Positions 2,601-39,597 of a DNA stretch of 64,000 nt are shown piece by piece. The notes below the pieces were generated by a model. It worked only from the letters and a program-made list of their open reading frames with translations. It was not told the origin of the DNA and did not search any database. A program made the position numbers and the translations under genes. This DNA comes from Nymphaea colorata (lineage: Eukaryota > Streptophyta > Magnoliopsida > Nymphaeales > Nymphaeaceae): NCBI RefSeq assembly GCF_008831285.2, contig NC_045146.1:13819149-13883148 (forward strand), written 5' to 3'. Position 1 is the first letter of the stretch. Each line of letters opens with the position of its first letter.

Positions 2601-3347
2601 TGTAGATGCTGATGCTCTAAGTTGATAGATGTACCCTATCCTATCCAGGTTCATATGTAGACAAGGACCCTAAAAGAAGGGGGGATCAGGGACCTTCAAG
2701 CCTCTTTTATGGGTGATGAGGTGATGAGTTGTTAACCTCATGCTCACACCAAAAACTGTTATTTGTATTTGACTGTAAGACTGAAACTTGAGGAATGAAG
2801 TAAAACTCATTTTTCCATGAAAAGCCTGAGGGAGAAGATTTTTCAGATGCTATGTGGAAACGAGTTTTATGAAACTGGGTTTTTGACAAACCCAATTTCC
2901 ACATCACCCAAACAAAATTAAGACTGGGCTTAAGCCGTCATCTAAACAGTACCTCAGCATAGATTGGCTTCTTCATTTTGATGAAGTTAGGTAAACCTTC
3001 AAGAAGACACGCTAAAAGGGTACCGGAAACTTTTGTTTGTTTGTTTAAACTAAAGAAACGTAGCACCAATTTGGATGATTTAACTCGGTGGCAAATCAAT
3101 TCATTCATTGACCGATAAGAGGGGACGACAAGTTATACACTCCATTTTCAATTGTTTCCGATATTAATCAACAAGAAATTGCTTTTATTTTTAGTTATTC
3201 TTTTAACAGTATTTTTTTTTTGGTCTATTCATAACTGATTCTGGATCGGAGACACCACCGGCCGTGCCACTCTCTCAGCAACAGTTGTAAACCTCAAGAG
3301 ACGCCATTTGTTACCTAGAGACACGCAGCGATCTCTTTCTCTTCACT

Positions 3348-3879
3348 CCTCGAGCGGCGGCAAATTGTACGTGGAAAGTAAAACCAGCGAGACTCGTCTT
3401 TTTCGCCTCAACACAGGGATAACCATGGACGAGGAGGAAGAGCGACAGCTTGTGTAGACTGTGAGAGAAGCCGAGGAACCTGCGGTGAGGATCCCTAGAA
3501 AGAAAGAATAGGAAGGGGAAGAAGAAGAAGTGGAGGAAAAAGTGAGTTTGGAACGTTGAGATGAGGTTGAGTCATTGGGTCAGATTTATAATTGGGGGTT
3601 CGCTTCCTTCTTGCGAGGCCAATCCCCAACTCTAAATCGACCACACAACTCAACCTCATCTCAACGTTCCAAACTCACTTTCCTCTCCTTCACTCTTTCT
3701 TCCATTACCTATTCCCTCATTTTCTTTCTCAGGACCTCGACCTCAAGTTCGTCTACTGCTCTTGTGATCTAGAGAAGCTGTTGCTCTTCCCCCTTCTCCT
3801 ATTCTTCTCCTTGTATGGAGACACAAAGAGGAGGCTAGCTGGTTTTACTTTCCACGTTCAATTTGCCGCCCCTCGAGAA
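3348..3879. repeat. Long inverted repeat, copy 1
   Basis: The left arm (3348-3600) and right arm (3621-3879) are imperfect reverse complements around a 20-bp loop (3601-3620). Both ends carry CCTCGAG next to a GGCGGC/GCCGCC block. The loop-proximal stem is the cleanest part: about 30 bp beginning GTGAGTTTGGAACGTTGAG pairs perfectly with the right arm. Transcribed in either direction it would fold into a roughly 250-bp hairpin. The open frames across it are by-products of the arm sequence, not convincing genes. Confidence 0.88.
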
Positions 3880-4244
3880 CAGCAAAGCTAAAGATGTCGC
3901 AGCCAGTCTTGAGGTAATAAATGGAGTCTCTTAATAAGAGGCGGAGCTGCTAGAATTTTTTTTAGGAGCGAGTCAAATGGTCCAACCAAGAAATTTTTAT
4001 TTTTTTAATGTAATTTTTTTTCCAATTAACTGGAGAACGAGAAGTACTTTGCCAGCCTTAATATTGCCTTCACTTGCCCTAGGATTCAAGTTTTTTTCAT
4101 GTACATATTATACCTTCTCAATAAATGGTGGGGAGCCTACCTCCCAACATCCTTCATTGGAAGTTGAGTAGTTGGATTTTCTACGAGATCAACCGACACG
4201 AAATCTGGCATAGGATCCGCCAACGAGATTAATGACAATCTACT

Positions 4245-5085
4245 AGTTTGGAAAGGGAGACGACTCCCAAGGGCTGTTTGGGTGGTCTATTTAGGCAGTG
4301 CTGGACGACTTCCTATGGATGGACTCGTGCAAAAGCAAGTCGATCTTTCGCTTCCAGGTGTCATGTCTGCAAGCACACAAATGAAGATATCAAACAGCTG
4401 TTTTTCGACTACAAGGGTGCTCGATCTATTTGGATTTGCATCTACGGTAAGTTTGGGAGGGCTGCACCATGGCATTGGAGGCCCCCAAACATCATGTAAG
4501 GACTCAGTCGGTGGCATAAGGAATCAAAGACAAAACTATCGACAAATGTTGAAAAAAAAAAGCTTCCAGATGGTGATTTGGAGAACCGGTAACCACTTTA
4601 AGCATATAGGGGACATTGCCATAGGCAACTTGGCCAATCAATTTTGGTCGCACTGCAGCGAGCAACAGTGGACCTATCAGTGGACTCAATCACAACAGGT
4701 GAAAACTCATAATTGGCTACGTACTGAAATCCTATGGAGCAATGGAGTTAACCAAAATGATACTTGAGTGGAAATCAATAGCACTTCCTTGTTTAAGGCT
4801 GGCAGGAAAGGGGTAGCAGGCCTCATTAGAGACGATGCAGGTTGGTTTCGGTATGGACTAGCTTGCTGGATTCATAATAGTTCTGGTTGGCGAGAGACTG
4901 AGGTTTTTATGGAATGCATCATGAACTTGGCTAATTTGGAAGATAATCTAGGGCATATCTACATACTGGCAAATGATGGCGATTGAAAGCAGCACCTTCG
5001 TAGTTTAATAGAATGCAGGTCTGACATTGCGCCCAACTCAAACAGTTTCTTCAGCACTTTTGCCATTTGCAAGAGGTGGCCTCTT
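4245..5085 (+). pseudogene. Decayed LINE fragment: zf-RVT and RNase H
   Basis: Plus-strand translation in shifting frames matches the C-terminal part of plant non-LTR retrotransposon polyproteins. Around 4330-4480 it reads like the zinc-finger segment after reverse transcriptase (RCHVCKHTNEDIKQLFF, then ARSIW). Around 4768-5060 it reads like the RNase H domain (GVAGLIRDDAGWF, later ILANDGD). The usual catalytic Asp of the first RNase H strand (NTDGS in relatives) is absent; NSTS stands there. Several stops and frame changes show it is dead. No reverse transcriptase core is present. Confidence 0.65.
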
Positions 5086-5144
5086 GCTTAAGCCTCTAAT
5101 TTGTTGATGTTTATTCCAGATAATGGGCTGTATACCAAATGGAA

Positions 5145-5165
5145 TCCCACATGTAACATGTGGGA
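5145..5165. repeat. Short palindrome
   Basis: TCCCACATGT and ACATGTGGGA flank a single base, giving a perfect 10-bp inverted repeat inside the transposon insertion. No function is evident. Confidence 0.5.
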
Positions 5166-5712
5166 CCCATTAAGAGAAAGTATCATGAGGAAATGAGGTC
5201 CTTGCAGACCCATTTTTGCTGTATATACTACTCAATTTTGTTGCAATACAAGGATGAGAGCCTCACCCCCAAGCAGTCATTGTTCGGAATTAGCTTGGGT
5301 GAGGCCACGGCCTAGGCGACCCCCCCTCCCTTCGCCCCTGCTCTTAACGTTTATAACTATCGGCAAGAGAAACAGATGAAGGGTTGGCCAAGGTCCTGCA
5401 GGATCTTTCTACCCTTCTGGTTTTAAATCTTACTGAAGCACATGTAAGGTAAAAGTTATCGAAGGCGCAAAGCTGGTTATATACACAAGCTTGTGTGCCA
5501 TGCAACGGCTCATGTGCATGACAGGTATTCTTGAAAAGTTTGAAAGTGGGTGAGGAGAACACATGTCATGTAGAAAGGTCCTAGGGATGGCAGAGGTAGA
5601 GAGGGGGCTTTGATCACACCTCCCTTGCCCAACACCAACTGGGCTCTAGAGACTGACCAATCTCACACTTCTTATCTATATTGGCTGTTGAAAATGAAAG
5701 TGAGACCGTCTC

Positions 5713-5720
5713 AATTTATA
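5713..5720 (-). promoter_or_regulatory. Orphan SLAH TATA box (unit 1)
   Basis: Minus-strand TATAAATT. Flanking sequence on both sides aligns with that around the start of SLAH gene B. The start codon position is decayed (CAT to TAT on the plus strand) and no exon 1 follows. Confidence 0.5.
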
Positions 5721-6510
5721 AAAGAGGGGAAGGAGAGAAAGCGAGGGAGTGCCCAATAAGGAAACCTTCTCTATCTGTCTAGGAATGTCAATATATCAGA
5801 TTAAAATTAGAAATATGATCTAACTGCTTCAAAAAATTCAGAAAAAACATTAATATGCAATTAATAAATCGTATTTGATTTTACTTTAAAATAGGACATA
5901 TGATGGATTCAGATTTGGTTTTAAACAAATATCCAGTCAAATCAAGAACTGCGTGGCATGGCATCCATATATACTCGTTATGAACAGATTTCTCTGTCAA
6001 AGTAGTCCTGTCTTCCTATAGGTATTACCGAAACCAATTTTTCTTTTTATGTTTTTCCAAAATAGACTCACTCGATTAATATAATCAGATACTTTGTAGG
6101 CGCTAATCAGCACTCGTAATTAACTTTATTAGAAATGTTTTCAAGCTGGTAACCGTGTGCAATTATATAGGAACAACGCGAGGGGGCGTTAATATAAGAA
6201 ACGGGGGTGGGGGGTGAGGAGGCCCGATATATAATATATATGTCTGGAACCTTCCCTCGGATAGAAATATTTGTTTTAGAGAAATTGGTGTGGGAACAAA
6301 TGCATTCATCTGTTTTCACTATGTAATTTAGCACGCCTTAAATCTTTCAGGTTATACAGGTGACAACATGTATATTTATTCACCGGTATAACCTTCATTC
6401 TTTCTTTTTTTAATGGTTCCTTTCCTTCCTTCATAAAATAGGACTGGCACTTGCATAGTTAAGATTATTAATCGGAAAAATAATGAAAATACAATATATG
6501 TGCCCGAAAG

Positions 6511-6552
6511 ATATATATATATATATACATGAAGAGAGAGAGAGAGAGAGAG
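6511..6552. repeat. (AT)n(GA)n microsatellite, unit 1
   Basis: A short AT tract (6511-6527) and GA tract (6532-6552). It is the positional counterpart of the much longer tract at 11,684 and of 23,351. Confidence 0.9.
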
Positions 6553-7866
6553 GTAGGGAAAAGAATTGAAATAAACAGACTGCCAAATGATTTTTTTTTT
6601 TGTTTAAACCACCACTAAAAACACCTTATAATGAAAACATTAGCAATGGTTTATGATACTTTTAACCATCATTCGTGATGTGTTTAAACGGCATTCTTAG
6701 ATATGTAACCATCCGACAGTAGGCTTATTTCAATAGAGTCAAGCAGAGAAAATTACACACAAACTTGAGCAACCGCAATAGCACGTGCTCTGTTATCTAT
6801 CATAATCAAGGTAGGTTCATTTATACTGCTTAGGGATGCTGATTTGGATTAGATATTTGTTTGAAGCATTTTAAAAAAAATCCGATATGGAAAAAAATTT
6901 AATATTCGATCAAAAAATTCGATTGAATTCAGATTTAAAGATTAACATCCGATCAGACATACATAAGTAACAGAGACCCCTTTTTCATATAATAAAAATC
7001 GATCCCTATCCTTGATGGTCCCCTTTATTTGAACAGCAAAAGAAGCAGTTTGCACTAGTGGCCAGACTCAATGAGCAGCAAGTTCAAGGTGAAAAGAATG
7101 ATGATGAACCCCACAACACATATGATAAGAATGCTAACATTATGAAAAGGACCATTAACAAATATTGTGGCAAAAATCAAGACGGTGGATTATGGACACA
7201 GTTAATAACCAACACAAATCAAGGAACCATTGTGATAATGAATATACAAATAAGGAGTTATCTCAGCTGTAATACCTATATATAAGAGATTAACATGTTT
7301 TATCAATTCAAGGCCGATAGCCTTTTCTAGATAAATAAAATTATTCTAGGTTAAAATTTCTTATTTTTTATGTTTTCAAGTATCTCTCCATAAAAGTACT
7401 CCAGAAAAGTAGTCTCAATGATGTTAACGCGTTCCTCGAATTGCAGTGGAGCCGATCGACTACTTGGAAAGGGGAAAACGGAAAACAAAACCCTCTGCTA
7501 CTCACTAGCTTCTTCGAGCTCAAATAGTCTTCGATCTCAGCTTCAATTTTGCGTTTGTTCTTATGTTTTTAGCATTTCTTTGCCTTTTGGTTTTCAAAGT
7601 TACAAATACAGTAATAATCTTTTTGTTGCTTCATAAACAATTCTGAAGTTGGTTCTGGTAAATTAAATCCGGCTGCATACTTCGATTCTATTAATTTTGT
7701 TTCTTGATTTTTTAATACAAAAGGATTTGAAAAAATGGCCTACACCAACCGAGTTTGGCTTATATGACAGTATTCTGTATGAGCAAAACAAAAACTTCAA
7801 GTACATGTGCATACATTAGTTAATAAAAACAAAAGTACAAAAAATAATAAAAATATGTGGTACATA

Positions 7867-8045
7867 CAGTAGCGGAGCTACTTGTTGACTGGGGCGAGCC
7901 ACTGACCACGCCAGTCCATCAAAAAATTTATTATATTGTGTTAACTTCACATAGTTATGATTCTAAAATTTTATGCAATGCCCACACCAAAGTTGTGTCA
8001 CCAAAGCGAGTGCCCCGCAAATAACAAATCTTGGCTCCACCATTA
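7867..8045. mobile_element. Small hAT-like MITE with 8-bp TSD
   Basis: The 179-bp insertion is flanked by GGTACATA at 7859-7866 and 8046-8053. Unit 3 has the empty site at about 13,540. The imperfect terminal inverted repeats (CAGTAGCGGAGCT and GGCTCCACCATTA) match the plant hAT end pattern. It has no coding capacity. Confidence 0.75.
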
Positions 8046-8385
8046 GGTACATAACATCATTTTCTCCACCAATTCAATTCGAATTCAAGTTGATTCCAAT
8101 GGATATGATTTTGAATACAACTAAAGACGGGAAATGGTTGCTTCTAGGGTTCCTATAGCATGCAAGGGGGGCATTCTGCATTGTGTTCGCGGAATACATT
8201 ACTTGTTTGGCTTAATGATACTTCGAAGACAAATTTAAAGACCCCGATGGCGAAGCTCCTGATGACCTTCGTCGTGGCCTATCAACACCAAGTTAGCCTT
8301 TGAATGATGCCCTCAAAAACAGATATTTTGTGAAAGTCATATTTTCCAAATGAGGATCTTATAAAGTAGCTTTGGAAAGTTAGTC

Positions 8386-8560
8386 GGCCAGGTGGTTGGG
8401 TAGAGGACACGTTATCGGTTCGATTCTTATAGATGTTTCTCTCTTTAAGAGTAATAAGTTGATAGATGTACCATATCCTATCCAAGTCCTTATGCAGACC
8501 AGGACCCCAAAAGTAGGGAGAATTATAGATCTTCAAGCCTCTTTTACCGGTGGTGAATTT
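8386..8560 (+). mobile_element. Possible tRNA-derived SINE
   Basis: An A-box-like GGCCAGGTGGTTGGG with TAGAGG (8386-8406) is followed 12-20 bp later by a B-box-like GGTTCGATTC (8418-8427), the layout of a Pol III internal promoter. The same segment recurs in units 1 and 3, so its insertion predates the array. The end is not defined. Confidence 0.3.
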
Positions 8561-9663
8561 TTAACCTCATGCTCAGGCTAAAAACTGTTGTATTTGAGCA
8601 TAAGACGGAAGCTTGAGGAATGAAGTAAAACTCAATTTTCTCTAAAAAGCCCAAGGAAGAAGAATTTTCAGGCATGAAAATGAGTCTTGTTAAACTAGGT
8701 TTTGACAAACCCAATTTCCACATAGCCTAAACACACCTAGAACTGGGCTTAAGCAGTCATCTAAGCAGCCCCTTCGCATTGACTAACTTCTTCTTTTTCC
8801 TAGGCAAGCGGAAGTTAGGTAAACTTTCAAGAGAACATGTTAAAAGGGTACCGTAAACTTCTTCAACTTAGCACTTTGAGTCCAACTTTGTAGAAACGTA
8901 AATATCGACTGAAGCATATACTTACAATAACCAAATTTGCCATGGAAATTAAACAATTGTCATGGAGCACAAACTTATACGGAAGTTGGTATAACAGGGC
9001 AGCTGGAGTCTCATCAGGGCTTTTCTATTAGAGTGTGGTGGGAGTTGGTATGATAGGTTAGCTGGACCATCGTAAGGCCTTCTCTAAAAATTAAGTTTTA
9101 TGAAAATTTAGTTTTTTCTTATTTTTTGAAACTAAATTAATTTGTTATATGTTTGGAAGACTTTTTGGAACGAGACAATGAGTTGCCTCAAAAAAAAAGT
9201 ATGTCCATGAATGACTTAACTCCAAGAGATGTGTCCATGGGATGCCTTGGGCATGAGTTTTTTTTTTTAATATAACATGGGTTTGAGATATCCATGCTAT
9301 TGAGATGTTCTGTTTGTTTAAACTAGAGATCTTAGACGGCCTTCTGTTTCAAATCCAAGGCTACCAAACTTAGTATCAATTTGGATTGAATTCCGTGGCA
9401 AATGAATTCATTCTTTGACTTGACCAATGAGAGACAATTGTTTCCGATATTAATCAACAAGAAATTGTTTTTATTTTAAGTTATTTTTATTTAATTTTCG
9501 TTTTGTTTTTGTGGAGACTTTTTTAACAATAAATTTTTTTGTCTATTCATAATCGATTCTAGATCGGAGACACCACCAGCCGTGCCACTCTCAGCAATAG
9601 TTGTAAACCTCAAGAGACCCCCATTTGTTACGTAAAGACAGACAGCGATCTCATTCACTTCAC

Positions 9664-10191
9664 TCCTCGAGCGGCGGCAAATTGAACGTGGAAAGTAAAG
9701 CGAGCGAGACTCCTCTTTTTCGCCTCAACACAGGGAGAACCATGGGATGAGGAGGAAGAGCAACAGCTTGTGCAGACTGTGGGAGAAGTAGAGGAACCTG
9801 AGGTGAAGATCCCAAAAAAGGAAAGGACGGAATAGAAAGAGGAAGAAGAAGAAGTGGAGGAAGAGGAGATGGAGGGTGACCAAGTGGAGGAAAAAGTGAG
9901 TGTGGAAGGTTGAGTCATTGGGTCGATTTATAATTGGGGGTTTGCTTCTTTCCCTGCGACGAAGCCAATCCCCAACTCTAAATCGACCTCACGACTCAAC
10001 CTCATGTCAACGTTACAGGCTCACTTTCCCCTCCCTTTTACTCTCCTCCACTCCTTGTTCTTCCATTGCCTATTCGCTCATTTCCTTTCTCGGCACCTCG
10101 CCCTCAAGTTCGTCTACTTCTCTTACAATCCAGACAAGCTGTTGCTCTTCTCCCTTCTCCTATGCCTCTCCATGCATTGAGACACAAAGAG
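9664..10191. repeat. Long inverted repeat, copy 2 (right arm truncated)
   Basis: The left arm is about 9664-9942 and the right arm 9966-10,191. The outer roughly 90 bp of the right arm are missing: copy 1 continues through TTTCCACGTTCAATTTGCC, while here the sequence jumps to TTAATAAATGGAG. The rest of the stem stays complementary. The left arm has one open plus-strand frame rich in Glu (DEEEEQQLVQTV). Confidence 0.85.
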
Positions 10192-10602
10192 TTAATAAAT
10201 GGAGTCGCAAGGGATAGACGGATGAAGGGTTTGGCAGGGTTCGGTGGTGAACCAAGGGTTCTAAATCCTGCTGAACCATAAGCAAAAAGCAAAGTAAAGG
10301 TTATCCAAGGTATGAAGCTTGTGCGCTGTGCATAGTGAACTACTGGTCTTAAATCTTGCTAAAGCATAGACAATGTAAAGGCCATGGAAGATAGGAATCT
10401 AGTTATATGCACAAATTTGTGCGCCATGCATAGTCATAGTCGCATATGCATAACATATATGCTTCTTCCCAAAGGTCCTCGAGATGGCAGAGGCAAAGAA
10501 GGGGCTCTGCCTCTATAACACCTACTGGGCTCTAGAGACTGACCAATCTCACTTCTTATCTATAGTGGCTGTTGCAAATGAAAGGGAGACGGTCTCCATT
10601 TA

Positions 10603-10610
10603 CATTTATA
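10603..10610 (-). promoter_or_regulatory. Orphan SLAH TATA box (unit 2)
   Basis: Minus-strand TATAAATG, at the position equivalent to the TATA of genes D and G. It lies about 410 bp upstream, in the minus direction, of inverted repeat copy 2, with no channel exon between them. Confidence 0.5.
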
Positions 10611-11680
10611 AAGCTGGAGAAAGAGAGAGAGAGAGAAAGAGAGCCCAATAAGGAACCTTTCTCTATCTGTTAGGGATGTCAATATATCCGATTAAAATTA
10701 AAAATATGATCTAACTGCTTCAAAAAAATTAGAAAAACATTAATATGCAATTAATAAATCGTATTTGATTTTAATTTAAAATAGGACATATGATGGATTC
10801 AGATTTGGTTTTAAACAAATATCCAATCAAACTAAGATTGTGATTCACACACTGCGTGGCATTGCATCCATATATACTCGTTATGAACAGATTTCTCTAT
10901 AAAAGTACTCCCGTCTTCGTATATGTATTACCGAAATCAAATTTTCTTTTTTTATGTTTTTCCAAAATAGTCTCCCTCGATTGGTATAATCAGATTACTT
11001 TGTAGGCGCTAATCAACATTCGTAATTGACTTTATTAGAAATGTTTTTACGTGTGCAGTTATATAGGAACAACCGGATTTGAGGAGGCCCGATATATAAT
11101 AAACTTAATTACGTGAAAGAACCAATACGTAAATTAATAAAATAGATTGTGGGTCGAGAGGGCCACCGCCCACACGAATCCACGCCTAGCGCCGCAACGT
11201 GGATTGCTTTCCTAAACGTTATTTCGCCTTCCATGGCCACCAGTTTTGAGTATTTTTGCGATCCCTTTAAATTTATGAAAAAATCAACCTCTCTGTAATA
11301 TGTTCAAAGTTCGCAAGTGAAATGTTACTGTAAAGAAATAGAAAAGAATTGTTTGGAACCTTCGCTCGGATAGAAATATTCGTTTTGGAGAAACTGAAGC
11401 TATATAAACACTTGGTGTGAGAACAAAAGCATTCATCTGTTTCCACCATGTAACTTTACACGCGTTAAATCTTTCAGGTTATACCGGTGACTTTACATTC
11501 ATTCTTTTTTTTTCTCCCTTTCCTTCCTTCATAAAATAGGACTGGCACTTGCGTAGTTAAGATTATTAATCGGAAAAATAATGAAAATACAATAAAGAAA
11601 GGCTCATTAATTTGCAGCTACGCTTGATATTATGGCGGAGGGCAGAGCTGGCGGTTGACCCAAATACATGTGCCCGATGG

Positions 11681-11811
<131 letters not shown>

Positions 11812-11993
11812 GGAAAAATAATTGAAAAAAAACAGGCAGCGGAATGTTATTGGATGATTATTTTTTTTAATCCGTCCATAAAAAGACCTTGTAATGGAAA
11901 TATTGGCAATGGTTTATGATATTTTAACGATCGTTGGTGATGTGTTTTAACGGCATATTTAAATATATAACCATCCGACAGTAGGCTTATTAG

Positions 11994-12416
11994 TTATTTC
12001 AATAGAGTCAAGGTGAGAAAATTACAGCAAAACTTGAGCAACCTCAATAGCAGTGCTCTGTTATCTATCATAATCAGATCTGAGTATCGATACACAGTTG
12101 GTGTTGGATACACAGTTGCATATATTGGGCAAAAAGGGGAAGGCATTGGCCTTGCTGTTCTCTGGTCACGACGTTGACGTGCATTGTTGGAGAAGATCAC
12201 AGGTTTCCCGGAAACAATGGAGCACAGGAGCAAGACGAGGGTGACAAAAAGCGAAGCCGTAGACAGGACCCTTCTAATTTGATGAGCTAAGACGGTGTCT
12301 GTTGCCTTCGCACATGAAGCCGATGAGAGTGCAAGCATCGTCGCAGGAAAGGAATAAGCCCACCATGCAAAACTGAACTTTTTCATTGAATGCTGGAAAA
12401 GCGGTGGCCTGACAAT
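11994..12416 (-). pseudogene. Isolated SLAH exon 2 (exon 1 lost)
   Basis: From an intact acceptor (TTTAAATAG) the frame reads IVRPPLFQHSMKKFSFAWW and continues through the last two membrane helices of an S-type anion channel, as in gene B exon 2. About 33 bp of the preceding intron remain, ending at 12,449, where the sequence switches to a copy of the GDSL start region. No exon 1 lies upstream before unrelated repeats, so it cannot make a channel. The C-terminal tail is longer than and different from gene B's. The RP pair after the splice site is kept here but is TPP in gene B. Confidence 0.85.
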
Positions 12417-13882
12417 CTATTTAACAGAAATCGTAAACAAGCGATCAGATACAGGAACTTAGCAGAACCCATGGATAGTGCGAGTTTGGTGTGAAACACT
12501 AAACAGGATCTTGCCTTCTCTTCTTCAACTTTTTTTCTTCTTTCTGTGCTCTTTCTTCTCTAAATAAATAAAGCATTGTCTTGTTGGCGTTCTCTACTGA
12601 AGGACATGATTAACTTTTGGAAAGGAGGTCGGTAAATGAAAGTTTGCCTTAGAAGATACTCCACAGAGAGAGATGGTGGCCTGTTCTGTTTGCCAAGGCT
12701 GCAACGTTGCATTCTCTCATCACTATCAGCCAAAAAAGAATGGGGTCAAATGTTGCAGTCTCAATGATGTTAACGCGTTCCTTGAATTGCAGTGGAGCCG
12801 ATCGACTACTCGGAAAGGGGAAAACGGAAAACAAAACCCACTGCTAGTCACTAGCTTCTTCGAGCTCAAATAGTCTTCGATCTCAGCTTGAATTTTGCGT
12901 TTGTTCTTATGTTTTTAGCATTCCTTTGGCTTTTAGTTTTGAAAGTTACAAATATAGCAATAATCTTTTTGTTGATTCAGAAACAATTCTGAAGTTGGTT
13001 CTGGTAAATTAAATCCGGTAGCATACTTCGGTTCTATTAAACTTTTTTCTTGATTTTTTAATACAAAAGGATTTGAAAATTGGCCTACACCTACCGAGTG
13101 TGGCTTATATGACAGTATTCTGTACGAACAAAGCAAAAACTACGCAAGTACATGTGTAACCTCACGAACACTTTCATGATGTGGTGCCAGGGGCGAGTTG
13201 AACAGTCCAACTTTTGGATTGGGTGGGTTCAAACTGAATCCAAGTCTAAATAATACATGATGCAACTAAAAGTTTTTAATTTTATGTGTAATTTTTTTTA
13301 TTACAATCAGCTTTGAATCAAATCAGAATCTGAATTGACTTAGAGAATAAGCTGTGTAGAATCGACTTGAAATTAAGCTTGATTTTTTAAGATAAGAATA
13401 AGAAAACGTTTGTAAGAATTATGGAGAGTTTTAGTGTTAGAAAAGCTACAACCTATGACGTTTAACTAATGGGGAGTAGTACCATGGTTAAATTAGTCTC
13501 ATTAGTTAATAAAAACAAAAGTACAAAAATAATAAAAATATGTGGTACATAGCATCATTTTCTTCACCAATTCAATTCGAATTCAAGTCGATTCCAATTG
13601 ATATGATTTTGAATACAATTAAAGACAGGAAATAGTCGCTTCGTGGGTTCCTCTAGCATGCAAGGGGGGCGCTCGGCACTGTGTTCGCTGAATACGTTAC
13701 CTGTTTGGCTTAATGATACTTCGAACACAAATTTAAAGAACCCGATGGCCAATCTCCTGATGACCTTCATTGTGGCCTATCAACACCAAGGTAGCGTTTG
13801 ATTGATGCCCTCAAACACCGATATTGTGTGAAAATCTTGTTTTCCAAATAGGGATCTTTTAAATTAGCTTTCGAAAATTAGT

Positions 13883-13924
13883 CAGCCAGGTGGTTGGGTG
13901 GAGGACACATCATTGATTCGATTC
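13883..13924 (+). mobile_element. Possible SINE internal promoter (unit 3)
   Basis: CAGCCAGGTGGTTGGGTGGAG resembles an A box and GATTCGATTC a B box, spaced as in tRNA-derived SINEs. It is the counterpart of 8386-8427. Confidence 0.28.
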
Positions 13925-15164
13925 TTGTGGATGCTCCTCTCTTAGATTGTAAATGGTGGTATTGTGATGCTTTAAGTTGATAGATGTACCATGTCCTATC
14001 CAGGTCCCTATGTAAATTAGGACCCCCAAAGGTAGGGGGTATTAGATATCTTCGAGTCTCTTTTCTTCTTGGTGGTGAGTTGTTAACCTCATGCGGACAT
14101 GAAAAACTGTTATTTATATTTGAGCGTAGGACAGAAACTTGAGGCATGAAGTAAAACTCAATTTTCGCTAAAAAGCCTATAAGGGAGAAGATTTTTCAGG
14201 CCTGAAATTGAGTCTTGTTAAATTAGGTTTTGACAAACCCAATTATCGCTTGACCTACACACACTAAAACTGGGCTTAAGCTGTCATCTAAACAGCCCCT
14301 TAGCATTGATGAACTTCTTCTTTCTCCTAGGCAAGCTGAAGTTAGGTAAACTTTCAAGAGAAGAAGTTAAAAGGGTACCGTAAACTTCTTCAACTTAGCA
14401 GGTAAAGTCTGTAGAGAGGTAAATATCGACTGAAGCATAAAATTACAACTAAATTTGCAATGGAAATTCAACAATTGTCATGGAGCACAAACTTATGCGG
14501 AAGTTGGTATAACAGGGCAGCTCATCAGGGCTTTTCTATTAGAGTGTGGTGGGAGTTGGCATGATAGGTTAGCTGGAGCAACGTAAGGTCTTCTCTAAAA
14601 GTTAAGTTGTACAAAAATTTAGTTTTTTCCTAATTTTTGAAACTAAATAAATTTTGTTATATATTAGTGAGACTATTTGGAACGTGACCATGAGTTGCCT
14701 CCAAAAAAGTATGTCCGTGAATGACTTACCTTCAAAAGATGTGTCCATGGGATGCCTTGTGCATGGTTTTTTTTTGTATATAGCATGGGCTTGAGATATC
14801 CATGCTATATGCTATTGAGATATTCTGTTTGAGATCTTAGACGGCCTCCGATTTCAGGTCCAAAGCTACCAAACATAGTACCAAATTGGATTGAACTCGG
14901 TGGCAAATCAATTCATTCATTGACCGATGAGAGGCAATTGTTTCCGATATTAATCAACAAGAAATTGTTTTTACTTTTAGTTATTTTTATTTAATTTTCG
15001 TTTTGTTTTTGTGGAGACTTTTTTTAGCAATAAATTTTTTTGTCTATTCATAATCGATTCTAGGTCGGAGACACCACCAGCCGTGCCACTCTCAGCAATA
15101 GTTGTAAACCTCAAGAGACCCCATTTGTTACTTAAAAGACAGACAGCGATCTCATTCACTTCAC

Positions 15165-15739
15165 TCCTCGAGCGGCGGCAAATTGAACATGGAAAGTGAA
15201 GCGAGCGAGACTCCTCTTTTTCGCCTCAACACAGGGAGAACCAAGGGATGAGGAGGAAGAGCAACAGCTTGTGCAGACTGTGGGAGAAGTAGAGGAACCT
15301 GAGGTGAAGATCCCTAGAAAGGAAAGGACGGAATAGGAAAAGGAAGAAGAAGAAGTGGAGGAGGAGGAGATGGAGGGTGACCAAGTGGAGGAAAAAGTGA
15401 GTTTGGAAGGTTGAGTCATGGGGCCGATTTATAATTGGGGGTTCGCTTCCTTCCTTGCGACGAGGCCAATCCCCAACTCTAAATCGACCTCACGACTCAA
15501 CCTCATGTCAACCTTACAGGCTCACTTTCCCCTCCTTTTTACTCTCCTCCACTCCTTGTTCTTCCATTGCCTATTCCCTCATTTCCTTTATCGGCACCTA
15601 GCCCTCAAGTTCGTCTACTTCTCTTACAATCGAGACAAACTGTTGCTCTTCCCCCTTCTCCTATGCTTCTCCATGTATTGAGACACAAAGAGGATGCCAG
15701 CTCGATTTACTTTCAACGTTCAATTTGCCACCGCTCGGG
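15165..15739. repeat. Long inverted repeat, copy 3
   Basis: The left arm (15,165-15,442) and right arm (15,468-15,739) are roughly 80% complementary by eye over about 270 bp, around a 25-bp loop that contains CTTCCTTCCTTGCGACGAGG. It is the most complete copy. The minus-directed orphan SLAH TATA box at 16,382 lies about 640 bp from it. Confidence 0.88.
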
Positions 15740-15872
15740 AAGAGCAAAGTGAAAGAGGTAGCTGCGCGTCATTAGGTAATAAATGGAGTCTCTTGACGTT
15801 TACAACTATTGGCAAGAGATGGACGGATGAAGGCTGGCCAAGGTCCGGCAGGATCTTTCTACCTTTTTTGTT

Positions 15873-16262
15873 TTAAATCTTGGTGAAGCACAGGCAAGGT
15901 AAAAGTTATAGAAGGCACGAAGCTGGTTATATACACAAGTTTATGCGCCATGCAACGGCTCATGTGCATGGAATGTACTTTTTCAAAATGAGTGAAGAGA
16001 ACACATGTCATGCACCAACTGTAAATCTTGGTGAAGCACAGGCAACCTAAACGTTATAGGAGAAAAGCTGGTTATATGCACAAGTTTATGCGCCATGCAA
16101 TGCCTATGTGCATGACAAATACTTTTTGAAAGTGGGCGAGGAGAACACATGTTATGCACCAGGAATTAACCGTAAATCTTGGTGAAGCACAGACAAGGTA
16201 AACATTATGAAAGGCACGAAGCTCGTCGTATGCACAAGCTCATGCACCAGGAACTAACTTTG
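15873..16262. repeat. About 150-bp subrepeat, 3 copies
   Basis: TAAATCTTGGTGAAGCACAG starts at 15,873, 16,022 and 16,173. Each unit also holds CACAAGTTTATGCGCCATGC-like and GAACACATGT-like segments. Units 1, 2 and 4 have about one, two and two or more decayed copies between hairpin and promoter. Confidence 0.85.
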
Positions 16263-16381
16263 CACACAGAAAGGTCATCGAGATGGCAGAGGCAAAGAGG
16301 GGACTTTCATCACCCCTGATACTAACCAATCTAACACTTCTTATCTATAGTGGCTGTTGCAAATGAGAGTGAGACCGTCTC

Positions 16382-16389
16382 TATTTATA
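16382..16389 (-). promoter_or_regulatory. Orphan SLAH TATA box (unit 3)
   Basis: Minus-strand TATAAATA, 41 bp before the decayed start-codon position (16,346-16,348). This is about the spacing seen in the intact genes. The first dozen codons of SLAH exon 1 are still faintly alignable (GACTGACCA block), then homology ends. Confidence 0.55.
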
Positions 16390-17394
16390 AAACTGGGAAA
16401 GAGAGAACGAGGGATAGATAGCAAAACAGTCAATTGGAGCCCAACAAGGAAACCTTCTCTATCTGTTAGGGATGTCAATATTTGAGACCAAAATTAGAAA
16501 TATGATCTGACTGCTTCAAAAAATTTAGAAAAACATTAATATGCAATCAATAAATCGTATTCGATTTCATTTTCAAAATAGGACATATGATGGATTCAGA
16601 TTTGGTTTTAAACAAATATCCAATCAAATTAAGATTGTGATTGACACACTGCCTGGAATTGCATCCATATATACTCGTTATGAACAGATTTCTCTATAAA
16701 AGTACTCCTGTCCTCATATAGGCATTACGGAAATCAATTTTTCTTTTTTATGTTTTTCCAAAGTAGACTCACTCGATTAATATAATCAGATTACTTTGTA
16801 GGCGCTAATCAACACTCGTAATTAACTTTATTAGAAATGTTTTCACGTGTGCAATTATATACGAACAACGCAGAGGGGCATTATTATAAGAAATATTGGA
16901 TTTGAGGAGGCCCGATATATAATAAACTTAATTACGTGAAGGAACCAATATGTAAATTAATAAAATAAATTGTGGTCGAGAGGGCAATTGCCCACACGTA
17001 CCCACACCTAGCGCCGCAACGTGGATTGCTTTCTGCCACGTTATTTTGCCTTCCATGGCCACCAGTTTTGAGTATTTTTGCCAATATATAAAGTTTTTTT
17101 TAGATACAAATCATGTTATTTTGAAACAGAATCACCATATGATCTAAAAGTTTTCAATTATTAAGCTACTACATGCATGATCCCGTCTAACAAATATAAT
17201 TTGGTAATAGGATGATCACTTGATTGAATGCATTTAGAGTTGAAAACGCAGTGGGGATACACCACTTAATCAGTCACTTCGTTAAGAGTTGAACTCGAAT
17301 CAACTAAATGCATTGGAAACGAACATGGTACTGGCAAAAGTATGCGTTAATTCTCCCTTTCTCTCCCTTTTTATATATGTATACCCATTTTCAT

Positions 17395-18758
17395 TTAGGC
17401 AAAGGAAGTCGAGGAGGAGGCATATATTGTTGAAGAAGGCGAAGCCGTTGGTGTTGGATACACTGTTAAATAGATTGTGGAAAAAGGGGAAGGCATTGGC
17501 GTTGTTCTTCTCTGCTCACAACGTTGACGTGCACTATTGGAGAAGAACACAGCTTTCCCGAAAACAATCGAGAGCAGAAGCAAGACGAGGGTGACAAACA
17601 GCGAAGCCATAGACAGGACCCTTCTAATTTGATGAGCTAAGACGGTGTCTGTTGCCTTCGCATATGAGGCCGATGAGAGTGCAAGCATCGTCACAGGGAA
17701 GGAATAAGCCCACCATGCAAAACTGAACTTCTTCATCGAATTCTGAAAAAGCGGTGGCGTGACCATCTATTAAACAGAAATCGTAAACAAGCGATCAGAA
17801 CGATGAACTGAAGAGAAGGACTTTAACTCGACAATTTATGTAAAACAAGCGTTATCAAGGTAAGGTTAGTAGCAAATTCAAACTGACGAGTAGTGCCATG
17901 TGAGCTTACTAGCGATGTGAAGAGGAAGAGGGAGAGGAAGTACAACATCTTGCAGCCGGCGCCGAAGTAGCCCGAGATCGACTCCCATGCAACAGACGCC
18001 ACGCTCGGTGCAGCGATCGACAAGAAGGACGCTGGTCGTAGTTGGATCGTGATGGACCTGACGCTTGATAGGCGCTGATACAATGCAATAAACACCACAA
18101 CACAATGCATGATGCCGATGGAAAATAAAAACAGACTGATTTGTGGCAAGGAGAGGTCGGCGGCGGTCTGAGCTGCAGCGAAGTGGCCGATCATGGAGAG
18201 GTGGGTGGAAGGGGTCGCTATGGCCGCCAAGATTTGCTTGTCCTTGGTGAACGACTGGCCATAGATGTTGAACTGCAGCAGAAGCACAGGCAAGGTGAAG
18301 GAGCCCCAAAGGGCCATCGAGATGACTCTGCCCAAATGGACCCAGTTGAAGAAATTGGTTCCCTCTAATCTAATGCCCAGCCTCCAATATCGGTCTTGTA
18401 TGGAGGCAGGGATTAGGATGCACCGAAGGAGCAAGATGGCGGAAATCCATGGCGTAAAGAGGTAGTTCACCCAGAAGGGGTGGAGGAAATCGACCTTGAC
18501 AATGTTGGAGTAGAATATATATTTGAGGATGTATAAGAGGAAGGAGGAGGAGAGAGCGAGAGCGGCCAGCAGCCAGGAGTACCTCTCTACGACGGAGTTG
18601 AAGATGGGAGGCCATGGATCGTAGAAGGATATGGAGTTCATCGTCCTCCAAAGGACAGCTTGGCCGGCGAGGGCCATGGAGGCCATGAAGATGTCTGCGT
18701 GAAACCTTGCCAAGAATGGAGAAGGTGACTGACCAGTAGTCCCTCGCTTTCTGTCCAT
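17395..18758 (-). CDS. SLAH: SLAH anion channel gene B
   Basis: Exon 1 is 17,910-18,758 (283 codons, donor CTA|GTAAGC). The intron is 17,767-17,909 (143 bp). Exon 2 is 17,395-17,766 (acceptor TTTAATAG). The predicted protein has 406 residues. It matches the SLAC1/TehA-like anion channel family: FLARFHAD at 15-22, FTPWISAILLL near 101-111, IYGQSFTKDK at 164-173, ALYQRL near 215-220, LRPASFLS near 230-237. SMKKFSFAWWAYSFP in exon 2 opens the last two helices. The N-terminus is only about 14 residues, as in SLAH1/SLAH4 rather than SLAC1 or SLAH3. The highly conserved IYGQWFTKGKRF motif of its relatives is changed here (W to S, GKR to DKQ), so gating or partner use may differ. It would act in the plasma membrane; function is by family. 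Confidence 0.88.
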
Positions 18759-18798
18759 AGTGGTTGTTGCTGCTTGCGGGAAGAAGAAAGACAGGTCC

Positions 18799-18806
18799 TA
18801 TTTGTA
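18799..18806 (-). promoter_or_regulatory. Weak TATA-like box of gene B
   Basis: Minus-strand TACAAATA stands where genes D and G and the orphan promoters have TATAAATA, about 45 bp before the ATG. Gene E has the same variant. The changed base may weaken the box. Confidence 0.4.
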
Positions 18807-18839
18807 CAACTAGGAACCTAATTTGAATGAGACGGTGAG

Positions 18840-20341
18840 GCAGAGATAAAACAGTCAGAAGGAGTCAACAAGGAAATCTTCTCTCCTTCACAATTGCATC
18901 TACTAGGGACATGAATGGATAAGATTTGAACCAGATATACTTAACTACTTAAGATTCAGATGTAGAAAAAGGTTTATCGGTCAATTAAAAGCTTGAATCA
19001 TGTTTGGATTTAAGAAATCATGTCTAATTGAATTCCGAAATGGGTTTAAGAAAACAACAGATTGAATTATGATTCAAATTCGAACTCAGATTCATTTTCT
19101 GTTTCAAATAAATATCTTATATTGAATATCAATATCAATTTTTAGTTCGGTTGTGTACTCAAAAAGTAATATTCAGAATCAGATGTGGACATAAAATTCG
19201 GATTGATTTTGAATTTAGAGGTTGGATGCAGATATAACATATATATTTTTTCTCATTAGTATTCGATTCTTATATAACCTATGAACATCTTCAACATTTT
19301 ATACGAAGAGATTTTCGAATAGAAGTCCTTTCCTCATGTAGGTCATATATTTTCGAAACCAAACTTTCCCTTTTATCTTTTTTCAAATAAACCTATTTGA
19401 TTTTTTGGGGTTATCTATAGTTAAAGGAGCTAATAGAAACTGTCAAGTTACCTATACGAACACAGTGTTTGCCAATACTAATGGTTGATTTTAACAAACA
19501 ACCATTAGTTTACATTGAAAAAGAAAACTTTTTGTAAAGAGAAAATTGAAAATGGAAAAAAGTAAAAAGAATATGGAGGAGATTTCTTTTTTAATAAATT
19601 ATCAAAATGTCATTACTCCTTTACTGTGCATAGTGAGTTCCGTGCACAAAACTTTCTCTCCTACTTTATGGGCACTGTACGAATGTGTTTGATAATTGGA
19701 ATGCCACATTCTATAGAATGTAAATGTTCTACGAATGTATAATGCATCGTTCTTGTTACCAAATGCCTTAAATATCAAGGTGCACACCATGATCTGATGT
19801 TGAGAGATCCAAATTCATTTAAGACAGACCTTTCAAACGCGTTTGAGGCATACAAACACGGTACCAGTTGAAACTTACAACGAAAAAGGGGTGAACAAAA
19901 ATGGGAGGAGAGATTGTGTCGTTGGTGCGGTAAGCAAGTGGAAACGATTGTCTTAATCTGCGTACACGAATTGTTATGTTTCAGGGACACCAATATTTAA
20001 ATAAACTGAATTATATCGAAAGACTGATATGTAAATTAATAACTAAATTTTATCGGTTAGTGTGGACCACAACCCAACAAGCCAACACCTACATCCCCTG
20101 CTTCCAGCCATACAGGGGTGTCCACTACATCTATCTGTTGCCCACTTTCACTGAGCCCTTCACTTACTCTTAAGGGTAGGTATCATTTACATGGACATGG
20201 TACACCTTTACATTGTGCACAGGTCTGTGTATAGTGTAGATTGTTTCTTTTTATGTTCTTTCACATTTCATGGCTCATAGTTTCGTAAGTATTTAACATC
20301 ACGACTTAATTAATCAATTAATTTTGAATGAAAGTGCCTCA
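18840..20341. other. Upstream region of gene B, no gene
   Basis: AT-rich sequence. 18,900-19,260 resembles the dispersed plant repeat that opens TAGGGAYRTSAAT and recurs beside every SLAH promoter in the window. 19,300-20,341 matches 45,340-46,513 of block 2. No credible gene seen. Confidence 0.6.
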
Positions 20342-21522
20342 TTTATGTTCACGCATGTATGTTCCGGGATGTCGGTATTGGCACAGGATCAAAGCAAGGG
20401 TCATAAGCTATGTCACCAGGGCGTGTCCTTTTTCAACCCCACTCGTGTGGACACGATTATTTTCATCAAATCTCAACAAGCACCCGACTCACATCAAACG
20501 CAAGTCCCGTGAGGTCAAGCCGCACCATAGACATTTTGGTCTTTTTCTTTTTTATTTTTATGTAAGTAAAAATAGATTCAGGGCACAAAATCATGCCCTT
20601 CCCGCTGCTCTGTCCGACGTCTCTACCGACAGCATTGTCTCCTGCACCGCCGGCATTCTCTCATTGCTCCGACGTCTCAACTCTCCGTCTTGCTGCTCTC
20701 TCCGAGTCTCCGTCCGCTGCTTTTTCTCCTCCACTAGTGGCCGCTACTATCTCTCCTCCACCGTGGGGTCTGCTCTCTCTCCGTCCGCTGCTCTCTCCGG
20801 CCGCTGCTGTCACTCCTCCACCGGCATCTGCTGCTATCTCTCCTCCACCAACGGTTTGTCGTGGAGCACAAACTTATACGGAAGTTGGTATAACAGGGCA
20901 GCTGGAGTCTCATCAGGGCTTTTCAATTAGAGTGTGGTGGGAGTTGGCATGATAGGTTAGCTGGAGCAATGTAAGGTCTTCTCTAAAAGTTAGGTTGTAT
21001 AAAAATTTAGTTTTTTCCTAATTTTTCAAACTAAATAAATTTGTTATATATTAGTGAGACTTTTTGGAACGTGACCATGAGTTGCCTCCAGAAAAGTATG
21101 TCCGTGAATGACTTGCCTTCAAAAGATGTGTCCATGGGATGCCTTGTGCATGTTTTTTCCTTTTTGTATATAGCATGGGCGTGAGATATCCATGCTATTG
21201 AGATATTCCGTTTGAGATCTTAGACGGCCTCCGATTTCAGGTCCAAACATAGTACCAATTTGGATCGAACTCGGTGGCAAATCAATTCATTCATTGACCG
21301 ATGAGACGCAATTGTTTCCGATATTAATCAACAAGAAATTGTTTTTACTTTTAGTTATTTTTATTTAATTTTCGTGACTTCTTTAGCAATAATTTCTTTG
21401 TCTATTCATAATTGATTCTGGATCGGAGACACCACCAGCCGTGCCACTCTCTGCAATAGTTGTAAACCTCAAGAGACCCCCATTTGTTACGTAAAGACAG
21501 ACAAAGATCTCATTCACTTCAC

Positions 21523-22059
21523 TCCTCGAGCGGCGGCAAATTGAACGTGGAAAGTAAAGCGAGCGAGACTCCTCTTTTTCGCCTCAACACAGGGAGAACC
21601 ATGGGATGAGGAGGAAGAGCAACAGCTTGTGCAGACTGTGGGAGAAGTAGAGGAACCTGAGGTGAAGATCCCTAAAAAGGAACGGACGGAATAGGAAAAG
21701 GAAGAAGAAGAAGTGGAGGAGGAGGAGATGGAGGGTGACCAAGTGGAGGAAAAAGTGAGTTTGGAAGGTTGAGTCATGGGGTCAATTTAGAATTGGGGTT
21801 TAAATCGACCTCACGACTCAACCTCATGTCAACGTTACAGGCTCACTTTCCCCTCCCTTTTACTCTCCTCCACTCCTTGTTCTTCCGTTGCCTATTCCTT
21901 CATTTCCTTTCTCGGCACCTCACCCTCAAGTTCGTCTACTTCTCTTACAATCCTGACAAGCCGTTGCTCTTCCCCCTTCTCCTATGCTTCTCCATGTATT
22001 GAGACACAAAGAGGAGGCCAGCTCGTTCTACTTTCCACGTTCAATTTGCCACCGCTCGG
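21523..22059. repeat. Long inverted repeat, copy 4 (loop deleted)
   Basis: Same arms as copies 1-3, but about 45 bp at the centre are missing, so AATTGGGG runs directly into TTTAAATCGACC. The outer stem (CCTCGAGCGGCGG with CCACCGCTCGGG) is kept. Confidence 0.85.
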
Positions 22060-22590
22060 GAAGAGCAAAGTGAAAGAGGTCGCTAAGCTTCTTTAGGTAA
22101 TAAATGGAGCCTCTTGACGTTTACAACTATTGGCAAGTGATAGACGGATGAAGGGTTGGCCAAGGTCCGGCATTATCTTTCTACCCTTGGTGAACTTCTA
22201 AATTTGGTTGAAGGTAAAAGTTATCGAAAGAGCGAAGTCGATTATATGCACAAGCTTGTATGCTATGTATAAGCTCAGTACTTTAGTGAACCACTTGTTC
22301 TAAATCTTGTTGATATGAAAGACGTGAAGCTGGTTATATGCACAAGCTTGTGCTATGAATAGGCTCATCTGCATGAATAGGCTCATGTGCATGACAGGTA
22401 CTTCCTGAAAGTGAGCGAGGGTAACACATGTCATGTCATGCACCAGGAACTAACTCTGCACACATAACCACTTCTCCCCAAAGGTCCTCGAGATAGCAGA
22501 GGCAGAGAGGGGCTTTGATCACCCCTAAGACTGGCCAATCTCACACTTCTTATCTATGGTGGCTGTTGCAAATTGAAGTGAGACCGTCTC

Positions 22591-22598
22591 TATTTATA
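22591..22598 (-). promoter_or_regulatory. Orphan SLAH TATA box (unit 4)
   Basis: Minus-strand TATAAATA about 530 bp upstream, in the minus direction, of inverted repeat copy 4. As in units 1-3, no channel exon follows. Confidence 0.5.
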
Positions 22599-23350
22599 AA
22601 ACTGGGGAAAGAGAGAGCAAAACAGTCAATTGGAGCCCAATAAGGAAACCTTTTCTATAGGTTAGGATGTCTATATCAGATTAAAATTAGAAATATGATC
22701 TAACTGCTTCAAAAAATTCAGAAAAACATTAATACGCAATTAAAAATCGTATTTGATTTTAATTTAAAATAGGACATAGGATGGATTCAGATTTGGTTTT
22801 AAACAAATATCCAATCAAATTAGGATTGTGATTCCCACACTGCAGGGCAAGGCATCCATATATACTCGTTATGAACAGATTTCTCTATAAAAGTACTCCT
22901 GTCTTCATATAGGTATTACCGAAATCAACTTTTCTTTTTTATGTTTTTCCAAAATAGGCTCACTCGATTAATATCATCAGATTACTTTGTAGGCGCTAAT
23001 CCACAGCAACACTCGTAATTAACTTATTAAAAATGTTTTCAAGCAGCTGACCGTGTGCAATAATATAGGAAAAACGCGGAGGGACATCGGTATAAGAAAT
23101 TATTGGATTTGAGGGCTCCCGGTATATAATAAACTTAATTACGTGAAGGAACCAATATGTAAAATGCATTCATCTGTTTTCACCATGTAATTTAGCACGC
23201 GTTAAATCTTTCAGGTTATACCGGTGACATCATGTATATTTATTCACCGGTATAACCTTCATTTTGATTTTTTGCTCCTTTCCTTCCTTCCTAAAATTGG
23301 ACTTCCACTTGCGTTGTTAAGAGTATTAATCGGAAAAATAATGAAAATAC

Positions 23351-23351
23351 A

Positions 23352-23388
<37 letters not shown>
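23351..23388. repeat. (AT)n(AG)n microsatellite, unit 4
   Basis: Positional counterpart of 6511 and 11,684 in the other array units. Confidence 0.9.

Positions 23389-23903: not shown

Positions 23904-23907
<4 letters not shown>

Positions 23908-23992
<85 letters not shown>
23908..23992. repeat. (AT)n microsatellite at insertion edge
   Basis: About 85 bp of AT repeats with one TTT interruption. It ends exactly where collinearity with block 2 resumes. Confidence 0.95.
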
Positions 23993-37552: not shown

Positions 37553-37555
37553 TCC

Positions 37556-37582
37556 TCCCCCCCCTCCCCCACCCCCCCCCCT
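37556..37582. repeat. Poly-C tract 3' of gene D
   Basis: Nearly uninterrupted C run with a few T and A. The gene G counterpart (60,787-60,797) is much shorter. Confidence 0.85.
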
Positions 37583-37606
37583 CAGTTTTAGTTTACGGTG
37601 GATGAT

Positions 37607-39558: not shown

Positions 39559-39597
39559 GCTGATTCTTGATGCTAAAAATGGAGGAGGCTCTGGTTG

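Follow-up and report, generated by a model that had tools for sequence, protein, structure and literature searches.

Hairpin loci built from inverted copies of a gene segment are known in plants. In the Arabidopsis strain Ws, the PAI1-PAI4 inverted repeat is read from a heterologous promoter with a start about 500 bp upstream (PMC3203196), and in the sex-determining region of Populus, 24-nt small RNAs map to an inverted pair of ARR17 partial duplicates (PMC9636151). At the Arabidopsis S-locus, the dominance hairpin Ah04mir1887 is predicted to target the SCR promoter directly upstream of the transcription start (PMC13128112). According to one report, mismatches keep hairpin transgenes from silencing themselves (PMC9263138).

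Here, a window of 64,000 nucleotides from Nymphaea colorata (contig NC_045146.1) was analyzed, in which inverted repeats lie inside a SLAH/GDSL cluster (Table 1). The locus is probably a hairpin-capable, mostly decaying inverted gene-fragment relic, which would stem from a copy of a trehalose-6-phosphate phosphatase (TPP) gene placed beside a SLAH gene and multiplied to four. Among the titles and abstract openings of the open literature on TPP or SLAC1/SLAH with inverted repeats, no description of this arrangement was found.

Table 1. Features of the four-unit array (positions in the window)
Feature	Position	Strand	Remarks
Inverted repeat 1 (IR1)	3296..3932		self-BLAST 74.8%; both arms match C8 TPP 5' region; left arm to about 3611 (TPP-sense on minus), right arm beyond 3611 (TPP-sense on plus)
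Inverted repeat 2 (IR2)	9713..10191		self-BLAST 71.4%; alignment
Inverted repeat 3 (IR3)	15078..15829		self-BLAST 73.4%; both arms match C8 TPP 5' region
Inverted repeat 4 (IR4)	21454..22132		self-BLAST 74.2%; alignment
TPP-type TATA box, left arm, unit 1	3584..3590	-	TATAAAT
TPP-type TATA box, left arm, unit 2	9926..9932	-	TATAAAT
TPP-type TATA box, left arm, unit 3	15427..15433	-	TATAAAT
SLAH 5' relic, unit 1	5651..5720	-	TATAAAT first base 5720, leader, ex-ATG = ATA at 5679, exon-1 stub
SLAH 5' relic, unit 2	10537..10610	-	TATAAAT first base 10610, ATA 10563
SLAH 5' relic, unit 3	16320..16389	-	TATAAAT first base 16389, ATA 16348
SLAH 5' relic, unit 4	22529..22598	-	TATAAAT first base 22598, ATA 22557
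SLAH (SLAC1-family) channel exon 1	17826..18797	-	PF03595, E 8.5e-20; promoter alignment
SLAH exon-2-like relic	12204..12467	-	fused to duplicated GDSL-lipase 5' region
Insertion of about 1.4 kb	3934..5340		lies between IR1 and the SLAH relic of unit 1; direct CTCTTA on either side (3928-3933, 5341-5346)

Relation of the arms to a TPP 5' region

Self-BLAST detected four inverted repeats in the window, with self-complementarity of 71.4-74.8% (E 1.8e-54 to 4.5e-119). The original prediction had placed them at 3348, 9664, 15,165 and 21,523; they are real and extend further out than these starts. The arms, predicted at about 250 bp, measure about 240-375 bp, and the right arm of IR2 lacks its outer part in the alignment. 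IR3 is the longest of the four, and the alignment shows that IR4 has lost part of the central loop together with both central TATA motifs. Left and right arms are 70-78% alike.

The genome (407.8 Mb, 783 contigs) was then searched by a method that skips very common words, and the arms were placed at the four array sites and at one other, on contig C8, which is the promoter/5' leader of a TPP gene. With the right arm, seven of eight matches were the four repeats, the eighth being C8:17997566-17997650 (E 6e-15). In the reverse direction, 601 bp of DNA upstream of the C8 TPP retrieved, apart from its own locus, six pieces, which all fall in IR1 or IR3; five have E 4e-4 or better and the sixth 0.11. 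A genome search for targets matching the arms had been suggested earlier; that the arms have an identifiable source had been missed. The C8 segment (L024:4533-4828) lies upstream of trehalose-phosphatase exons recognized by PF02358 in two frames (E 6e-7, above the curated cut-off, and 3.9e-5, below it); it contains a TATA box with its first base at L024:4810, a leader rich in pyrimidines and what may be a 5' splice site. The left arms match it plus/plus and the right arms plus/minus. On sequence evidence, both arms are diverged copies of a TPP promoter/5'-leader segment, two close inverted copies joined head to head with their promoter ends meeting. Reciprocal searches thus identify the C8 TPP 5' region as the parent; the direct donor is uncertain and may be another TPP copy, lost or undetected, because the arms share only about 60-70% identity overall with the C8 TPP (a value that reads low, the alignment misplacing the TATA block) and about 115 bp of each arm have no counterpart in it. 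In the tree, the left arms form one group (bootstrap 82) and the right arms another (100), and TPP attaches between the two, a topology demonstrating, within this alignment, that the palindrome arose once, before the array formed. The CpG observed/expected ratio was 0.56-0.85 in the arms vs. 0.92 in TPP, which fits methylation but also plain decay.

The inverted-repeat shape and the presence of other insertions within the cluster, e.g., 3934-5340, could also suggest a foldback or long-TIR transposon that inserted once, was co-duplicated and donated the leader of the C8 TPP as well. Such an origin is very improbable, since the arms were found at only four sites and one TPP promoter, the latter a single-armed segment whose promoter, leader and splice-site features are rightly placed for TPP. 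Widely dispersed hairpin copies away from SLAH promoters, the original mark of a foldback transposon, were not found in genome searches skipping very common words, and a dispersed transposon was rejected as the main reading. A clean insertion of the IR4 block was likewise rejected: the paralogous stretch without IR4 differs by an exchange of about 170 bp for 3.6 kb, with no clean insertion and target-site duplication. The left arm was also considered as a gene, its plus strand reading as an acidic peptide, but one interrupted by stops; a search with this peptide returned the arms themselves and one unrelated frame at E 7.5. This reading was discarded because the plus strand is antisense to the TPP leader.

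SLAH relics and TATA boxes on the minus strand

The SLAH-derived TATA boxes expected on the minus strand at 10,603, 16,382, 22,591 and, for unit 1, 5713 are present, a few bases from these positions. In units 2, 3 and 4, the repeats lie 0.42, 0.56 and 0.47 kb downstream, in line with the 0.4-0.6 kb anticipated. The distance is 1.79 kb in unit 1, about 1.4 kb of it being the CTCTTA-flanked insertion, so that the displacement of this box by a 1.4-kb element is borne out; the 199-aa frame of the insertion (4168-4767) gave no Pfam match. Channel exon 1 had been described as missing behind each promoter. Nearly all of it is gone, but 27-29 nt are left, and each of the four units reads ATA where the ATG was.

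The SLAH origin of these relics was evaluated by aligning the ATG-proximal 207 bp globally, with free ends, to the SLAH genes at 18.8, 44.8, 26.3, 39.6 and 48.6 kb (the gene at 62.8 kb being left out), using 300 random window segments as null. With the 18.8- and 44.8-kb genes, 0-4 of the 300 segments reached the score in each of the eight gene-unit pairs; the corresponding numbers were 8-183 for the 26.3-kb gene, 200-268 for the 39.6-kb gene and 10-134 for the 48.6-kb gene. A stricter local alignment against 200 shuffles was mixed, with only the 18.8-kb gene and unit 3 clearly above the null (47 vs. a maximum of 34). The claim of a SLAH origin therefore largely holds: collinear similarity over TATA box, leader and first codons, clear in the global test and mixed in the local one, indicates that the boxes derive from 5' relics of SLAH genes like those at 18.8 and 44.8 kb; the exon 1 at 17826..18797 and the gene at 43860-44834 are the nearest to the relics in their 5' ends. 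Elsewhere in the array, the exon-2-like relic is 89% identical to the exon-2 regions at 17.5 and 43.6 kb, and the GDSL-lipase 5' region to which it is fused (12447-13183) is 97% identical to 1273-2005.

Since units 1-3 each retain a TPP-type TATA box in the left arm, minus-strand transcription need not begin at the SLAH relic. In unit 4 the left-arm TATA is lost as well, and the right-arm TATA is gone in all four units. The left arm might have been kept as a minus-strand TPP-type promoter, the right arm being dead weight and the pairing incidental. In agreement with this, left arms evolve more slowly than right arms in relative-rate counts (R-specific:L-specific 31:15, 30:13, 37:14 and 32:16, p 0.002-0.029 per unit), although the units are not independent and these counts, like the TPP identities, come from one alignment with the TPP TATA block misplaced and are hence approximate. 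However, no conserved reading frame was found downstream of the left-arm TATA, unit 4 has lost the box, and left and right variability in units 2-4 alone does not differ significantly (14 vs. 20 of 230 sites, p 0.37). A retained promoter thus appears quite unlikely.

Folding potential and possible activity of the hairpins

Minus-strand RNA of the four repeats is predicted to fold back far more stably than shuffled sequences (-374, -301, -443 and -417 kcal/mol for IR1 to IR4; z-scores -20.6 to -31.7 with 20 shuffles each), the longest paired run of IR1 reaching 35 bp. The capacity for long hairpins on this strand, as originally proposed, is thereby confirmed at the level of predicted folds. In all four repeats the minus strand gives the better fold of the two strands; since the units share descent, these do not count as four independent cases. 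No Rfam covariance model matched at gathering score in window positions 1-25000, i.e., no known microRNA family was recognized there.

These properties would be compatible with an active silencing locus, in which hairpin RNA from the SLAH relic or the left-arm TPP-type TATA would yield 21-24-nt products that silence TPP. By analogy with the proto-miRNA-like S-locus hairpins acting on SCR, the TPP core promoter would be the chief target. The layout resembles that of PAI1-PAI4, with its heterologous start about 500 bp upstream of the inverted repeat (PMC3203196), and IR1 3653-3678 matches the C8 TPP just downstream of its TATA box with one mismatch. Against that TPP stretch, 21-mers with up to two mismatches number 45 in IR1, 6 in IR2, 35 in IR3 and 25 in IR4, counts without a chance control and partly in CT-rich simple sequence. 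Arm differences that keep wobble pairing number 49 vs. 32 when counted as columns (p 0.075) and 14 vs. 7 when counted as substitutions (p 0.19), neither significant; single-side changes kept pairing 15 times and broke it 24 times, with one compensatory change. For selection on arm pairing, the compensatory, wobble-keeping and strand-asymmetry counts were all without significance, and no count supporting active silencing reaches it. Furthermore, the right arm evolves faster than the left, and the SLAH core-promoter relic (TATA-to-ATG) differs more from unit to unit than do the stretch upstream of it and the arms: in units 2-4, 26/104 of its sites are variable vs. 65/500 upstream, and 26/363 and 20/248 in the arms vs. 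67/569 in the left flank. Functional use of the relic promoter or of the pairing is not supported. On balance, an active silencing locus is unlikely. In its strongest version, four tandem hairpin genes, each an anion-channel promoter with a palindromic TPP promoter copy, would silence TPP in trans through promoter-directed small RNAs; this is a quite unlikely proposition which, if true, would tie channel-type expression to sugar signalling. Arms less variable than the left flank and better minus-strand folds would, on the other hand, fit a functional hairpin.

The relic reading would account for the locus as follows. A TPP segment made up of the promoter, the 5' leader and the opening nucleotides of the leader intron would have been copied to an ectopic site and duplicated into a head-to-head palindrome beside a SLAH gene, which would have lost exon 1 behind its own promoter; the composite would then have been tandemly duplicated to four copies inside the SLAH/GDSL cluster. 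The direction of copying, from TPP to the array, is the one we infer. Transcripts reading through on the minus strand, if any, would fold into a long hairpin with imperfect pairing, possibly cut into mixed 21-24-nt small RNAs acting chiefly on the array itself. Silencing of TPP by the locus is possible; most likely, the locus today is a relic in decay, still able to form hairpins but affecting TPP little if at all.

If expressed, the array would offer a natural inverted promoter fragment under a foreign promoter, present in four copies decayed to different degrees and with a nameable target, so that the early life of hairpin silencing loci could be tested within one cluster: the copies that still give rise to small RNAs, the extent of mismatch that is tolerated and the methylation of the promoter target. 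Hairpins with mismatches also deserve attention for themselves, since mismatches in transgene hairpins are reported to prevent self-silencing (PMC9263138). If silent, it would be a clear example of gene fragments turning palindromic and spreading by tandem duplication.

Comparison with known hairpin loci

The best reading of the array is that it resembles known inverted gene-duplicate hairpin (hpRNA/proto-miRNA) loci, its construction being comparable to that of PAI1-PAI4. As in MIR163-type origins, an inverted duplication of a gene segment would have produced a hairpin locus; miR163 is a processed microRNA, whereas no Rfam family matched here in window positions 1-25000 (PMC5388894). The S-locus proto-miRNA-like hairpins are also inverted repeats, with heterogeneous products, and the position of the Ah04mir1887 target in SCR corresponds to the TPP part best preserved in IR1; they are expressed and tested, and function in allele dominance (PMC13128112). 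Like the Populus ARR17 locus, the array consists of ectopic partial duplicates of one gene with an inverted pair able to give a hairpin, but the ARR17 fragments derive from exons and are accompanied by small-RNA data, and those described here derive from a promoter/5' leader (PMC9636151). As in PAI1-PAI4, an inverted repeat of a duplicated gene is fused to a foreign promoter and unlinked single copies are found elsewhere; the PAI arms are almost entire genes, arranged tail to tail and closely similar, whereas here promoter/leader fragments lie head to head, are 70-78% alike and occur in four tandem copies (PMC3203196).

Structure and origin of the inverted repeats

The four long inverted repeats of the original prediction, one per unit (IR1-IR4), were borne out by self-BLAST of the window, with a self-complementarity of 71.4-74.8% (E <= 1.8e-54). 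When the minus-strand RNA of each was folded, the energies listed below corresponded to z-scores of -20.6 to -31.7 and none of the 20 shuffles per repeat was as stable. Rfam returned no known RNA family within window 1-25000 at gathering score. Long TA microsatellites (11684-11792, 23898-23992, 42582-42664, 55654-55731) also appeared as trivial inverted repeats in the self-comparison.

Features located in the window, with folding of the minus-strand RNA
Feature	Window position	Evidence	Fold energy (kcal/mol)	Longest unbroken paired run (bp)
IR1	3296-3932	self-BLAST	-374	35
IR2	9713-10191	self-BLAST	-301	17
IR3	15078-15829	self-BLAST	-443	22
IR4	21454-22132	self-BLAST	-417	31
GDSL lipase exon 1	945-1385	PF00657, E 3.5e-5		

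All four repeats aligned to a single segment of a retrieved region of contig C8 (L024:4533-4828), the left arms plus/plus and the right arms plus/minus, that of unit 2 over its inner part only. Judged from two frames matching PF02358, at 6e-7 (above the curated cut-off) and 3.9e-5 (below it), this region carries a trehalose-6-phosphate phosphatase (TPP) gene on its minus strand. Further pieces with what we take to be TPP-like motifs are ordered between and around these frames. In the TPP sense, the segment contains a TATA box (first base 4810) and a pyrimidine-rich leader; a possible 5' splice site lies near L024 4563 and the start codon is likely near 3965. Because the left-arm match passes the possible splice site by ~30 bp, it suggests that the arm was copied from genomic DNA rather than from cDNA. 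The junction of the two arms falls ~20-30 bp 5' of the TATA site, and the palindrome is therefore a head-to-head one, joined at its promoter ends. When 601 bp of C8 served as query in the opposite direction, the matches were that stretch and six pieces, all within IR1 and IR3; the weakest of these had an E value of only 0.11. Arms within one unit are 70-78% identical, higher than the ~60-70% overall between arms and C8, a figure that is low since the alignment misplaces the TATA block. Besides, ~115 bp of every arm has no counterpart in C8, and the direct donor may be another TPP copy.

Hairpin copies spread widely through the genome were not found: all 10 left-arm matches, all 7 mid-arm matches and 7 of the 8 right-arm matches fell inside IR1-IR4, an absence elsewhere that is not absolute, as the searches omit very common words and score best candidates only. 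The eighth right-arm match lay at C8:17997566-17997650 (E 6e-15). The genome searched, presumably a plant's judging by gene content, comprises 407.8 Mb in 783 contigs, and the window belongs to contig C9.

SLAH relics and order of events

Every repeat lies downstream, on the minus strand, of a stretch aligning with the 5' end of the 18.8- and 44.8-kb SLAH genes (SLAC1-family channel genes named by window position) and spanning TATA box, leader and start codon. As originally noted, the channel exon 1 is missing: 27-29 nt are left and the start codon reads ATA in all four units. The proposed SLAH derivation of the TATA box held in end-free global alignment with the 18.8- and 44.8-kb genes, whose scores were equalled by 0-4 of 300 random window segments (26.3-kb gene, 8-183; 39.6-kb, 200-268; 48.6-kb, 10-134), whereas local alignment against 200 shuffles was mixed, one of eight pairs with these two genes being clear. 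PF03595 was matched by two of the six SLAH exon-1 frames tested. Much of the likeness further upstream comes from one AT-rich stretch (window 16462-16660) that recurs genome-wide (31 of 40 scored matches).

Among units 2-4, left arms share 94-97% identity and right arms 91-93%; unit 1 is more distant from the others (identity 83-86% for left arms, 81-84% for right arms). In the maximum-likelihood tree, left arms group together (bootstrap 82), as do right arms (100), with TPP joining between both groups; from this grouping, the palindrome arose once, before the array expanded. Sequence and descent of IR1-IR4 are well explained if a TPP promoter/leader fragment came to lie, inverted, behind a broken SLAH gene and was then amplified to four copies.

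Other rearrangements were observed in the window. Unit 1 carries a 1.4-kb insertion (3934-5340) between direct CTCTTA copies; the termini of the insertion, GAGGCGGAGC... and ...CGCCCCTG, may be short inverted repeats, and its 199-aa frame has no Pfam match. The GDSL lipase 5' region (1273-2005) is duplicated at 12447-13183 (97% identity), where it is fused to a SLAH exon-2-like relic. A 5.4-kb direct repeat (35481-40767 and 58674-64000, 93.6% identity) holds two near-identical SLAH genes. SLAH segments 17552-24795 and 43588-47477 are paralogous, the former containing the 3.6-kb IR4 block where the latter has ~170 bp of other sequence.

Silencing potential and probable decay

A bolder alternative is that IR1-IR4 form a live promoter-silencing locus, which we consider improbable. 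IR1 3653-3678 differs by one mismatch from the C8 stretch directly 3' of the TATA box, and 21-mers matching the TPP region at <=2 mismatches number 45, 6, 35 and 25 in IR1 to IR4, raw counts that are uncorrected for chance and include CT-rich words. TATAAAT is kept at the TPP position in the left arms of units 1-3 (3590, 9932, 15433) and lost from the unit 4 left arm and all right arms; minus-strand transcription could start there, and the transcript would then contain the left arm only. Across units 2-4, both arms vary somewhat less than the left flank (variable sites: left arm 26/363, right arm 20/248, left flank 67/569), which favours constraint or gene conversion. The core-promoter relic (26/104) is twice as variable as its own upstream stretch (65/500), which argues against upkeep of the SLAH promoter. 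The spacer between repeat and relic (15830-16299 and matching spacers), with short internal repeats (...GGTTATATGCACAAGCTTGTGC...), varies more than any other part of the unit (88/226).

Single-side changes at paired sites kept pairing in 15 cases and broke it in 24, with one compensatory change. In all four repeats, which share descent, the minus-strand fold is more stable than the plus-strand one; transitions still paired on minus- versus plus-strand RNA numbered 14 versus 7 (p 0.19), and between-arm columns keeping pairing 49 versus 32 (p 0.075). Relative-rate counts of right-arm versus left-arm changes, not independent of one another, were 31:15, 30:13, 37:14 and 32:16 (p 0.026, 0.014, 0.002 and 0.029), and one arm changing twice as fast is not obviously tolerated by a hairpin under selection. 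On balance, these tests lean towards decay.

Among known systems, the closest in construction is PAI1-PAI4, where an inverted repeat lies ~500 bp downstream of a foreign start site (PMC3203196). Akin in kind are the poplar ARR17 fragments (PMC9636151) and the S-locus hairpins, which include one whose predicted target is a promoter (PMC13128112).
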